This document shows positions 41,037 to 47,695 of a stretch of DNA of 64,000 bases, piece after piece. The stretch covers positions 1 through 64,000 of the forward strand of contig NZ_JXDF01000001.1 in NCBI RefSeq assembly GCF_001308195.1. The letters run 5' to 3'. Made by a program: the position numbers and the translations under genes. The notes under the pieces were generated by a model. It did not search any database, had not been told where the DNA came from, and saw nothing but the letters and a program-made list of their open reading frames with translations. How positions within the stretch are numbered: position 1 is the stretch's first letter; every line of letters starts with the position of its first letter. The stretch is from Apilactobacillus kunkeei (GTDB lineage: Bacteria > Bacillota > Bacilli > Lactobacillales > Lactobacillaceae).

Positions 41037-41146
41037 GTTGACTCCCTTTCTCTAAAGTAATAAGTTATACATAAGTTATTTATAAATAGTACTACCATAT
41101 TGTTTTAAAATAAACAGAATTGTTTTATTCGGGGAGAAGGATTTAT

Positions 41147-42301
41147 TTGGATTATTTAATCGCATTGTTTTTAATGATTACATTTGCGAAATTTTTTGGA
41201 ATGATTGCTTCTAAAATTCACATTCCAGAGGTAGTCGGACAAATCATGGGTGGTGTCATTCTTGGCCCATCCGTACTAGGATTGATTCACCGACAGGATA
41301 TTGTAATTGCACTAGCTTCATTGGGGGCTGCACTATTGATGTTTGGTGCCGGTCTAACTTGTGATATCGACAGATTGAAGAAGTATTTTGGTCCAGGTGT
41401 CATCGTGGCACTGTTTGGGGTAGTGTTTCCGGTCGGATCAATTTATCTAATCTGTAGATACTTCCAACTTTCGATTATTGAAAGTGCCTTTATCGGAATC
41501 GTGTTCGCGGCAACATCAGTGTCCATCTCAGTTGCCGTCTTAGAAGAAATGCATGAATTGAAATCCGCAGCTGGAATTACGATTTTAGCCGCAGCCGTAG
41601 CCGATGATATTATTTCAATCGTCTTGCTAAGTGTCTCTATTCCTATTTTAGGAGTGGGCCGTGGCCACGGTGATTCAGATGCATTATTCCTAATTATTTT
41701 ACAAATTGTATTTTTCTTATTCTTATGGCTTTGCTATAAGATTGTAACTTTATTAATCAACATTTTGGATGTTGATCCTGCTAAGGCAGGGGTATATTCA
41801 TTCCTATTGTGCCTATTCTTAGCTGGAACTGCCGAAATGGTCAGATTAAGTGCCGTCACAGGTGCTTTCTTCGCTGGCCTAATCATCAGTCAGACTAAGT
41901 TTAAAAAGGTACTAATGTCTAGGTTAAAGAGCCTAGGAACATTGCTGCCAATTCCAATCTTCTTTGTAAGTATTGGTGTTGATATGCAAGTTAACGGAAT
42001 CTACAAGCACTTATTGATGTTTATAATCCTAACTGTGCTAGCGGTGGTTACTAAGTTCTTAGGTGCCTTTATCGGTGCCAAACTTAGCCGAATCGACTTA
42101 GCAAACTCCGTGGAAATCGGGGCAGGGATGATTAGTCGAGGAGAAGTCGGAATTGTTATCGCACAAGCTGGATTGGGCAGTCATTTTATTTCAACTAGCT
42201 ATTATTCAACATTGATTGCTGTAATAGTTGTGACAACAATCTTAGCTCCACTAATTTTAAAACCAGTCGTATTATGGAAACGCAAAAGAGAGTCAGTATA
42301 A
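41147..42301 (+). CDS. Cation:proton antiporter, CPA2/KefB-like
   Basis: A 384-residue membrane transporter with about 12 helices. Motifs of the CPA2 family are clear: IPEVVGQIMGGVILGPSVLG near the start, AAAVADDIISIVLLS with its double Asp in the transport site, and GAGMISRGEVGIVIAQAG. It lacks the C-terminal RCK/TrkA domain of KefB. The ion is Na+ or K+, not resolvable. TTG at 41147 follows GGGGAGAAGG; starting at TTG 41120 would include that site. A paralogue is encoded at 46556-47695. Confidence 0.88.
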   Translation: MDYLIALFLMITFAKFFGMIASKIHIPEVVGQIMGGVILGPSVLGLIHRQDIVIALASLGAALLMFGAGLTCDIDRLKKYFGPGVIVALFGVVFPVGSIYLICRYFQLSIIESAFIGIVFAATSVSISVAVLEEMHELKSAAGITILAAAVADDIISIVLLSVSIPILGVGRGHGDSDALFLIILQIVFFLFLWLCYKIVTLLINILDVDPAKAGVYSFLLCLFLAGTAEMVRLSAVTGAFFAGLIISQTKFKKVLMSRLKSLGTLLPIPIFFVSIGVDMQVNGIYKHLLMFIILTVLAVVTKFLGAFIGAKLSRIDLANSVEIGAGMISRGEVGIVIAQAGLGSHFISTSYYSTLIAVIVVTTILAPLILKPVVLWKRKRESV

Positions 42302-42318
42302 GCTGACCCTCTTTTTTT
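42284..42318. terminator. Terminator after the antiporter gene
   Basis: AAAAGAGAGTCAG and CTGACCCTCTTTT form a hairpin followed by T residues. The opposing miniprotein gene ends inside it, so it may act in both directions. Confidence 0.8.
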
Positions 42319-42574
42319 ATGGAATATAAGATATTAATACCAGGATTAAATCGATAATAACAACGGTCACAATCGCACAAATAAAAGCTAGTAGTGGTAG
42401 GAATCTTTCATCACCAAACCGACTCATGTGGCGGACGTTTCTATCAAAGGAATTTGTAAATCGTTTATATGATTTTTTTAGATCTCTTTTTAGTTGAGCA
42501 GTGATAAGACGACAGTACTTACATTTGATTTGATTGAAGAATAAATTACCGCAAATCGGACACTTTAAATGAAT
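42317..42574 (-). CDS. Zinc-ribbon plus membrane-helix miniprotein, apparent AUU/AUC start
   Basis: A gene without any ATG/GTG/TTG start. The frame opens after TGA and runs past AAGGAGGAG to ATC ATC ATT. From the ATT it encodes 85 residues: CPIC and CKYC (C5, C8, C18, C21) form a zinc ribbon, a basic helix (LKRDLKKSYKRF) follows, and one membrane helix (about 60-84, LLAFICAIVTVVIIDLILVL) sits at the very end. The strong Shine-Dalgarno, the Cys pairs and the TAA inside a terminator support a real gene. The exact start may be either ATC or the ATT. The function is unknown. Confidence 0.7.
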   Translation of the reverse strand: MHLKCPICGNLFFNQIKCKYCRLITAQLKRDLKKSYKRFTNSFDRNVRHMSRFGDERFLPLLAFICAIVTVVIIDLILVLISYIP

Positions 42575-43044
42575 GATGATTAACTCCTCCTTATTGATTT
42601 TTCACTATTGTATCAGGGGTTCTAACGGAAATAAATTTAGTGAAAAACTTAAAAATAAACACAGAGTTCATAAATATTCATTTAAGTATCGATATTGATG
42701 AATTATTGGACACAAAGTAAAAATAAAAAAATTATAGATTGATGATAAGTTAGTAAAATCACAAATGCTTTTGGATGGCATGTGTCAAAATGTGTTAAAT
42801 TCTTTTGTTTCTTATAAACATGAACATTTGTATCTAAAAAATGACATAGATGCAATTTGTTCAAAATGGATAATCACAAAACCCCTTTGAAAATACGATA
42901 AATATTTAACTTCCTAAGTTATTCATTAACATGAAATTATTTATATATACGCATTCATCGATAGACTTTAAACAAACGTTATAATATTATTACTTTATTG
43001 CAATTATATTTTAATTTTGTTACATAAATTAGGGGGATTTTGAT
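42575..43044. other. AT-rich gap, no gene seen
   Basis: Apart from the miniprotein's ribosome site, I see no ORF with a ribosome site in this 470-base gap. A TATAAT at 42980-42985 and AGGGGG before the ATG at 43045 probably serve the downstream surface protein gene. The long leader could hold regulation that I cannot identify. Confidence 0.5.
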
Positions 43045-43809
43045 ATGAAAATCAAAAAGTCATTTCTTGCCATTTTGGCAGTATTCACACTTTTTGCTGC
43101 TAGTGCATCAACTTCTGTCAGCGCCTTTACATCAGTAGAAGCAAACGCTGCTACTCATCATAAAGACACTAAGAAGCACAAGAAAGCAAAGAAGTCTTCA
43201 AAGAAACACAAGAAGGCAACAAAGAAGAGTAAAAAGAAGGCTACTAAAAAGCATTCAAAGAAAAAAGTAACCAAGAAGAAACCAACTAAGAAGGCAGTTA
43301 AGAAGCATGTTGTAAAGAAGCCTGATGGACCTACTCCAATTACTTACAAGAACCCAACTATTACTATCAACCCAACAGGTGATAATTCTCTTAAGGTTGA
43401 ATACACTAATAAGCAATACAAGTCATACAATGATCAACTTATTAGTGATGATAGCAATGATAGTGATGCACCAAATAAACTAACATTAAAGGGTATTACT
43501 TACTATAACTTAACGAATAGTCAATATCATACTGCAATGACATTTACTTTCTTAGTTCAAAACCCAGATAGTTCATCAGACCACTCATACTTTATTAGTG
43601 ATAATGACAGTACTTATATATCATCAAACAATGTTGATAAGAAACTTTACCCATCATGGAGTGGATACGCAATGGATGTTCCAGCAAACAGTCAACAAGT
43701 GGTTGACCTAACTTTCGTTGGAACTGATGATTCAACTCCAGCTGACTTTAGTTCATTCACATTTAACTACACACCTGATAACACTATTGCTGTTAACCTT
43801 AACTTTTAA
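43045..43809 (+). CDS. Secreted Lys-rich surface protein
   Basis: A 254-residue exported protein. The signal peptide has core FLAILAVFTLFAASASTSVSA, with cleavage near ANAA (about residue 36). A strongly basic stretch at about 38-93 follows, built of KKA/KKH/KKS units. An acidic C-terminal domain of about 150 residues (TITINPTGDNSLKVEY, QQVVDLTFVG) resembles DUF4352/immunoglobulin-like folds. The basic belt could bind teichoic acid or nucleic acid at the wall (inference). It has its own terminator. Confidence 0.75.
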   Translation: MKIKKSFLAILAVFTLFAASASTSVSAFTSVEANAATHHKDTKKHKKAKKSSKKHKKATKKSKKKATKKHSKKKVTKKKPTKKAVKKHVVKKPDGPTPITYKNPTITINPTGDNSLKVEYTNKQYKSYNDQLISDDSNDSDAPNKLTLKGITYYNLTNSQYHTAMTFTFLVQNPDSSSDHSYFISDNDSTYISSNNVDKKLYPSWSGYAMDVPANSQQVVDLTFVGTDDSTPADFSSFTFNYTPDNTIAVNLNF

Positions 43810-46528: not shown

Positions 46529-46558
46529 AAAAAAAGACACCCACGGGGTGTCTTTTTA
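46529..46558. terminator. Bidirectional terminator
   Basis: AAAAAAGACACCC and GGGTGTCTTTTT flank ACG, between thiT and the opposing antiporter gene. Confidence 0.88.
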
Positions 46559-47695
46559 TATTTGTTTTATTTTCATCACGATTGGTTTTAGTAATAATGG
46601 TGCCAAAATTGTGGTTAATATGATTGAAGCGATGATTGTTGAGTAGTAATTATCTGAGATTAGATTATTTTTCAAACCGATTTCGGCAATAATTAAACCA
46701 ACTTCGCCTCGACTAATCATTCCAACACCAATTTCGGTTGCGGATAATCGAGTGAATTTAAAGAAACGAGATCCTAAATATGCTCCTAAGAACTTCGTTA
46801 TAATAGCAATAATTGATATGATCAGGAATAATGATGCGTTTTCTACGATTCCTCTTATATTCATGTTAAGACCAACGTTTACGAAGAAAATTGGAATGAA
46901 TAATAGATTACCAAGTTGATTCATTTGGTGATTAACTGATTTTTTATAATTAGTCTGTCCGACTAATATTCCAGCGAAGAATGCTCCAGTAATTGCGCTG
47001 ATTTGAACGTGTTCTGCCAAAGCGGATAATGATAAACAAGCGATTAAAGCAACTATTGGTGCCAATGTAGGAGTAAGTTTAATTTTGAATTTTTTGACTA
47101 AGATGAATAAAATCCAAACGAAAATAAAGAATCCAATTTGCATTAATATCAAAAGGATAATGTTTGGCTTTCCCTTTGATGAGCTACCGCTGGTAAATGT
47201 AATAACAATGCTTAACAGTAAAATTGAAAGAATATCATCTGCCACTGCGGCACCTAAGATTGTTACGCCTGGTTTTGTATTTAGGGCATTCATGGACTTC
47301 AGTACGGCGACTGAGATTGATACCGATGTTGCAGCGAAAATAACGCCAATGAATAGACTTTCGATATTTGATAAAGCAAATAACTTACTTGTGTAAAAAA
47401 TACTGACGACCGGGAAAATAATCCCCATTATGGCCACGACAATGCTTGGCTTGAAATATTTTTTGAGTAGTTTTAAATCACTTTCTAAACCGGCGATAAA
47501 CATTAATAAGATAACGCCTAATTCAGCCAATGACGAGATTAAGTTCGTTGGTTTCACGAGGTTTAAAATTGCTGGACCGATTATGATACCAGCCACCAGT
47601 TGGCCAACTACTGATGGCAGGTTCGTTTTAGAAAATATTTTTCCGATAATCAGAGCAGCTAATAGAATGATGGAGATTGATAAGATGTAATCCAC
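46556..47695 (-). CDS. Cation:proton antiporter, CPA2/KefB-like (second paralogue)
   Basis: A 379-residue paralogue of the 41147-42301 product. It has LPSVVGQLVAGIIIGPAILNL, GAAVADDILSILLLSI with the transport Asp pair, GAFFAGILVGQTNYKKSV and GVGMISRGEVGLIIAEIG. About 12 helices are predicted and there is no RCK domain. Two such antiporters within 6 kb suggest roles in pH or Na+/K+ homeostasis, but which ion each moves is unknown. The 222-base gap before the next promoter shows nothing clear. Confidence 0.88.
   Translation of the reverse strand: MDYILSISIILLAALIIGKIFSKTNLPSVVGQLVAGIIIGPAILNLVKPTNLISSLAELGVILLMFIAGLESDLKLLKKYFKPSIVVAIMGIIFPVVSIFYTSKLFALSNIESLFIGVIFAATSVSISVAVLKSMNALNTKPGVTILGAAVADDILSILLLSIVITFTSGSSSKGKPNIILLILMQIGFFIFVWILFILVKKFKIKLTPTLAPIVALIACLSLSALAEHVQISAITGAFFAGILVGQTNYKKSVNHQMNQLGNLLFIPIFFVNVGLNMNIRGIVENASLFLIISIIAIITKFLGAYLGSRFFKFTRLSATEIGVGMISRGEVGLIIAEIGLKNNLISDNYYSTIIASIILTTILAPLLLKPIVMKIKQI

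Follow-up and report, generated by a model that had tools for sequence, protein, structure and literature searches.

The 64,000-nt window, i.e. the whole stretch of DNA analysed here, carries on its minus strand a short gene, encoding a miniprotein, that is almost certainly real (Table 1). Read along that strand, TGATACAAT is followed by a short leader, AAGGAGG, 8 nt, ATC, the open frame and an inverted repeat that it shares with a convergent Na+/H+ exchanger-family gene, a layout best explained as a single-gene transcription unit. As judged by eye, the same inverted repeat read on the minus strand runs into TCTCTTTT. An earlier note on this DNA had placed the miniprotein gene at 42317-42574 and left its strand unstated. 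The frame itself stood; it is read from the minus strand, many stops interrupting plus-strand frame 1 across this interval, and its start is better placed one codon upstream. Instead of ATT at 42574-42572, which would give about 85 residues, the best-spaced start is ATC at 42577-42575, which gives 86. The gene had rightly been described as hidden from ordinary start rules, as the window frame offers no in-frame canonical start before an ATG at codon 51 (ATC 42577-42575 being codon 1). Standard gene finders are blind to non-AUG starts and would miss this gene, because its start appears to be AUC rather than AUG.

Table 1 Features of the miniprotein locus and of two further candidate genes.
Feature	Position	Strand	Remarks
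Coding sequence	42317..42577	-	86 residues and TAA stop (42319-42317); frame kept in 7/16 genus genomes, under purifying selection
Zinc-ribbon-like module (Cys6, Cys9, Cys19, Cys22)	42512..42562	-	all four Cys conserved in the 7 carriers
Basic helical stretch, extending to the M-x2-FGD motif	42413..42496	-	modelled as a helix, at low confidence
Predicted membrane helix at the C-terminus, Asp76 invariant	42332..42388	-	hydropathy
Most likely start codon, ATC	42575..42577	-	8 nt after AAGGAGG
Shine-Dalgarno sequence, AAGGAGG	42586..42592	-	sequence
Extended -10 element, TGATACAAT	42607..42615	-	TGnTACAAT in 7/7
Terminator between two convergent genes	42292..42314		listed for the plus strand only
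Na+/H+ exchanger-family gene	41120..42301	+	PF00999, E 4.2e-67; context, not part of the miniprotein gene
74-residue hydrophobic protein, AUC-start candidate	G000:C18:125527-125748 (L073:1279-1503)	-	AAGGAGG, 8 nt, ATC
BCCT transporter	G000:C24, about 6144 downwards (L121:1-645)	-	PF02028, E 3.1e-43

The strong Shine-Dalgarno (SD) sequence claimed earlier is present ahead of the frame as AAGGAGGAG (42592-42584). The preferred ATC adjoins two alternative start codons, ATC at 42580-42578 (5 nt from the SD) and ATT at 42574-42572 (11 nt), and its spacing makes it the most likely of the three to initiate. Of the seven genomes that carry the frame, six have ATC as the in-frame codon at a distance of 8–9 nt from the SD core; A. 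apinorum has ATT, and its 8-nt codon sits one position further on in the protein alignment than that of the others. The core reads AAGG(A/G)GG in six of the seven and CAGGAGG in A. apinorum. The SD duplex, calculated with a generic 16S tail, is predicted at -10.2 to -11.8 kcal/mol in all seven, with the best predicted duplex of A. apinorum displaced towards the start codon. From the upstream stop to the first Cys, the frame contains no ATG, GTG or TTG in any of the seven genomes. With none of the canonical codons usable, an AUH codon at SD distance across species (7/7) and an SD as strong as expected of AUH-start genes, the miniprotein is very probably started at AUC or AUU, as far as sequence comparison can indicate.

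The extended -10 element ends 14–18 nt before the SD core in all seven genomes, and transcription is predicted to start at about 42600; the leader is thus short and a start further upstream is very unlikely. No convincing -35 element was found for this promoter, which is absent from the output of a consensus promoter scan. A frameshift from another start was rejected, since the interval from the -10 box to the first Cys offers no ATG, GTG or TTG at SD distance. One out-of-frame canonical triplet overlaps the first Cys codon in 7/7, and the GTG just 3' of the -10 box in two of the seven is out of frame and opens a frame of four codons. The leader was also rejected as an RNA element, as it folds no better than its shuffles (z 0.15) and the region 42200-43100 gave no Rfam match up to an E value of 1. 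The 64-kb window was scanned for an SD followed by ATH and an open frame of at least 50 codons, with no canonical start upstream to the stop or within the first 15 codons, and the miniprotein locus was the sole match.

The frame is present in seven of 16 Apilactobacillus genomes, the window's included, and is kept among several bee-associated lactobacilli, A. apinorum being one carrier. The six other proteins are 49–96% identical to that of the window, and 30 residues are invariant among the seven, the four Cys included. The earlier note had named conservation of these Cys with synonymous changes as support for the gene, and this is what all seven carriers display. Since ATG or TTG codons occur earlier in some relatives, silent and changing codons were also counted over just the 11 codons from the first Cys, which come before any canonical codon of the frame in each of the seven genomes. 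There, the six non-apinorum genomes differ pairwise (15 pairs) by 0–7 silent and 0–1 amino-acid-changing codons; the window's genome (G000) and G005, for example, differ by seven silent codons and no changing one. The six pairs with A. apinorum show 2–5 silent and two changing codons, with none at codon position 2. For the part of the frame that runs from the first Cys to the invariant codon-51 ATG, dN/dS amounts to 0.03–0.14 in the non-apinorum pairs with finite dS (9/15, the others being saturated) and 0.23–0.47 in the A. apinorum pairs with finite dS (5/6). The front part of the miniprotein therefore evolves as protein ahead of the canonical starts. The constraint is uneven along the frame, because in the part that starts 18 codons past the first Cys and ends at the ATG changing codons outnumber silent ones in many pairs, as with the 3 silent and 17 changing codons that separate G000 from A. 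apinorum.

The gene is dispensable, since the other nine of the 16 genomes gave no miniprotein match. When genomes were sampled at the level of the family (397), the order (395) and the class (398), 13 weak partial matches turned up outside the genus (E 0.001–0.01; four in the family, two in the order and seven in the class sample); eight of the 13 have an internal stop, and all were taken as chance. A scan of a collection of genome contigs returned six miniprotein loci, all from Apilactobacillus, and profile searches of NCBIfam, PHROGs and PDB with the miniprotein gave nothing convincing. Within the collections searched, the family was found only in Apilactobacillus. The whole genome to which the window belongs has one intact copy. 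It also has a decayed paralogue on contig 12 (G000:C12:137911-138084, L002), which has lost the Cys region and contains one internal TAA; by eye, it presents AGGAG followed by ATT/ATC and keeps the helix with its Asp.

Both Cys pairs of the earlier note, CPIC and CKYC, are encoded on the minus strand. The CPIC-x9-CxxC pattern is like that of short zinc ribbons, and two CxxC knuckles, as in Zn_ribbon_3, occur in all seven proteins. The Pfam profile Zn_ribbon_3 (PF13248) matches all seven members with a best E value of 0.00048, and the window protein scores 18.7 bits (E 0.0011), below the curated cut-off of 27 bits. On this sub-threshold match, the miniprotein may bind zinc. The basic helix proposed earlier corresponds to a basic middle part that is helical in a low-confidence AlphaFold2 model; the net charge before the hydrophobic helix is +2 to +10 across the seven proteins, with +2 in A. 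apinorum. An M-x2-FGD-x4-P motif lies between the basic stretch and the hydrophobic helix. Conservation and hydropathy likewise bear out the single C-terminal membrane helix, with a 19-residue Kyte-Doolittle mean of 2.7–3.15 and an Asp in all seven. Each member is thus predicted to have the layout of a tail-anchored protein, with one hydrophobic helix near the C-terminus and a basic part ahead of it. The AlphaFold2 model has a mean pLDDT of 64 and a pTM of 0.29; only the C-terminal helix is confident (block pLDDT 79–91), and the zinc-ribbon-like part is of low confidence. The charge asymmetry would favour an N-in orientation, weakly so in A. apinorum.

A tail-to-tail arrangement with a cation antiporter gene, also proposed earlier, holds in six of the seven carriers, the window's genome included, and fails in A. 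apinorum, where the miniprotein and exchanger genes lie on one contig about 63 kb apart. Exchanger orthologues (68–100% identity) are present in exactly the seven miniprotein-carrying genomes of the 16. Matches of 40–49% identity to the exchanger occur in all 16 genomes, and are the only ones in the nine that have no orthologue. A two-gene tree with midpoint rooting does not unite the carriers in a clean clade: neither the miniprotein nor the exchanger gene is found in G011, which falls beside the main group, or in G010, the sister of A. apinorum. Inner-branch support within the main group is 32–67, except for 99 at the G004/G005 pair. The G010 assembly is 86% complete, and the G011 region, judged by coordinates, would extend past a contig end. 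The shared distribution hints at a link between miniprotein and exchanger, a link that kinship, adjacency in 6/7 genomes and incomplete drafts confound and weaken. A second Na+/H+ exchanger-family gene is found at 46556-47695 of the window, about 4 kb from the first. The product of 43045-43809, judged by eye, is predicted to be secreted; it contains a long stretch rich in lysine and matched no Pfam family at E 0.001.

The comparison brings out, at the level of sequence, a coding frame, the absence of a canonical start ahead of the Cys module and a conserved promoter-like element with an SD. Taken as a whole, the locus probably encodes a scarce, membrane-tethered zinc-ribbon protein whose translation begins at AUC or AUU. 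The strong SD would place ribosomes on the AUC (AUU in A. apinorum). Because the initiator tRNA mispairs at AUC and AUU and IF3 discriminates against such codons, the protein level would be expected from known biology to be low and to follow IF3 activity; such a low, IF3-tuned level is, by analogy, somewhat more likely than not. The protein would be oriented N-in, C-out, its zinc-ribbon and basic helix in the cytosol and held by the one C-terminal membrane helix, whose buried Asp probably touches a membrane partner. For that partner, perhaps the Na+/H+ exchanger with which it co-occurs, the miniprotein may serve as a zinc-dependent adaptor or sensor present in few copies; we put forward the zinc-dependent membrane adaptor as a tentative assignment. 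It could also, as the earlier note suggested, be a small membrane regulator.

Other readings of the locus have to be weighed against this one. Translation might begin only at internal ATGs, so that only a short membrane peptide would be made and the Cys-rich part would be untranslated leader. The ATG at codon 51 is indeed invariant in 7/7, an earlier, species-specific ATG stands at least two codons after the second Cys pair in 5/7, and ordinary gene callers probably choose such codons. However, the 11 codons that come before any canonical codon show protein-like evolution, the low dN/dS of the finite-dS non-apinorum pairs extends to codon 51 with the four Cys invariant, and that codon has the conserved SD about 160 nt upstream, all of which makes initiation from internal ATGs alone highly improbable. 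We give the same very low weight to a decaying gene, i.e. a young pseudogene whose ancestral AUG was lost. The broken paralogue in the same genome, with its stop and without its Cys, would fit such a history, as would the lack of a match in nine of the 16 genomes. Yet an AUG is found at the start in none of the seven carriers, despite saturated synonymous sites in several pairs, while purifying selection continues and both the SD and the promoter element are retained.

Somewhat less remote, though still quite improbable, is a real AUC start whose weakness keeps a harmful product low, the product being a self-limiting, membrane-active peptide of the toxin-like or stress type. The small size of the protein with its strongly hydrophobic C-terminal helix, the patchy distribution in the genus and the one decayed paralogue are compatible with it. 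At the locus, however, no Rfam family was matched, antisense RNAs included, and a zinc-ribbon-like module with a long basic helix is unusual for membrane toxins.

Other genes of the genus show comparable start regions. In all 16 genomes infC reads GGAGG, 9 nt, ATA (G000:C17:20401-20604 region, L022), and the first in-frame ATGs, those of codons 5 and 6, are some 21 nt away from GGAGG, with an out-of-frame TTG in between in 2/16. Judged from position, infC appears to start at AUA in the genus. A genome scan for AGGAGG-N6-9-ATH listed 59 places. The control with the reversed pattern gave 126, which means that AGGAGG-N6-9-ATH shows no enrichment of its own. Frame reading covered 60 places in 53 loci, of which 35 had fewer than 30 codons and the 25 others were examined. 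Four of these 25 have no canonical codon 3–14 nt after the SD, namely the miniprotein gene, a hydrophobic-protein gene, the BCCT transporter gene and L088, and three (L094, L100 and L112) have only TTG or GTG at that distance. L088, with its in-frame ATG 2 nt after the SD, looks like an ordinary gene; L094 and L100 also have canonical codons farther upstream.

The start region of the 74-residue hydrophobic protein is identical in seven of the eight genomes with a match; the eighth, G006, is more distant (31% identity) and lies outside the seven-genome start listing. Codon 7 is GTG in two genomes and GTA in five. Directly upstream lies a gene for an ABC-F ATPase, which scores 372 of 380 bits with NCBIfam ribo_prot_ABC_F, the scored copy being truncated at the end of the locus. 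The BCCT transporter gene reads AGGAGG, 6 nt, ATT in all 16 genomes, and nine of them have no in-frame canonical codon ahead of the ATT. An upstream start is possible in the other seven, because an in-frame ATG directly before AGGAGG (4/16) or a GTG further upstream (3/16) precedes the ATT there. By their start regions, both genes seem to use AUC or AUU starts too. The zinc-ribbon miniprotein, the 74-residue hydrophobic protein and the betaine/carnitine/choline transporter might then belong to a translational regulon of three membrane-protein genes with conserved AUC/AUU starts and strong SDs, their levels set jointly by IF3 or ribosome status, an idea we consider rather unlikely. If it were true, IF3, apparently AUA-started itself, could co-set these levels in bacteria of sugar-rich niches. 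The miniprotein has strong comparative support across the genus, and one simple pattern scan gave two more candidates; together they suggest that non-AUG-start genes of this kind are under-annotated in Firmicutes, and bee lactobacilli, which are harmless and culturable, would offer a testable IF3-dependent gene set.

To our knowledge, few conserved non-AUG starts in bacteria are on record. Among the literature matches listed (titles and abstract openings, with subscription journals mostly outside the search), none reported non-AUG starts in Apilactobacillus. In its protein, the miniprotein resembles short zinc-ribbon membrane proteins of Firmicutes (Zn_ribbon_3; TcaA-like), which carry CxxC-x9-CxxC close to the N-terminus and, after it, a single membrane helix; unlike them, it has no extracellular domain, and the TcaA profile gave a weak match (E 0.085) to one of the seven members. 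The AUH start is of a known kind, and the miniprotein family is known here only from the genus. According to the available excerpts of PMC13009471, S. aureus cvfC1 (AUU) and ccpN (AUA) show start-site ribosome peaks, their reporters reach about 10% of AUG, with up to 30% for ccpN in rich medium, and ribosomes are enriched at the AUA of infC. The excerpt of PMC13068326 states experimental confirmation for Listeria infC (ATT) and rnhC (ATC), and that of PMC9410913 gives AUU starts for E. coli infC and pcnB. As described in these excerpts, cvfC1 shares with the miniprotein its small size, a possible zinc finger and a very strong SD, and its AUU start is conserved among staphylococci and lowers expression (PMC13009471). 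It differs in having 61 residues and in being the first gene of an operon, and the excerpt mentions no membrane helix, the two proteins being compared by description only (PMC13009471). The AUH start is shared with infC, ccpN, rnhC and pcnB (PMC13009471, PMC13068326, PMC9410913), and in infC, ccpN and cvfC1, as excerpted, it lies behind a strong SD, as in the miniprotein gene. In contrast, infC, ccpN, rnhC and pcnB encode different proteins; here the start would be AUC in six of the seven genomes and the product is predicted to be membrane-anchored.
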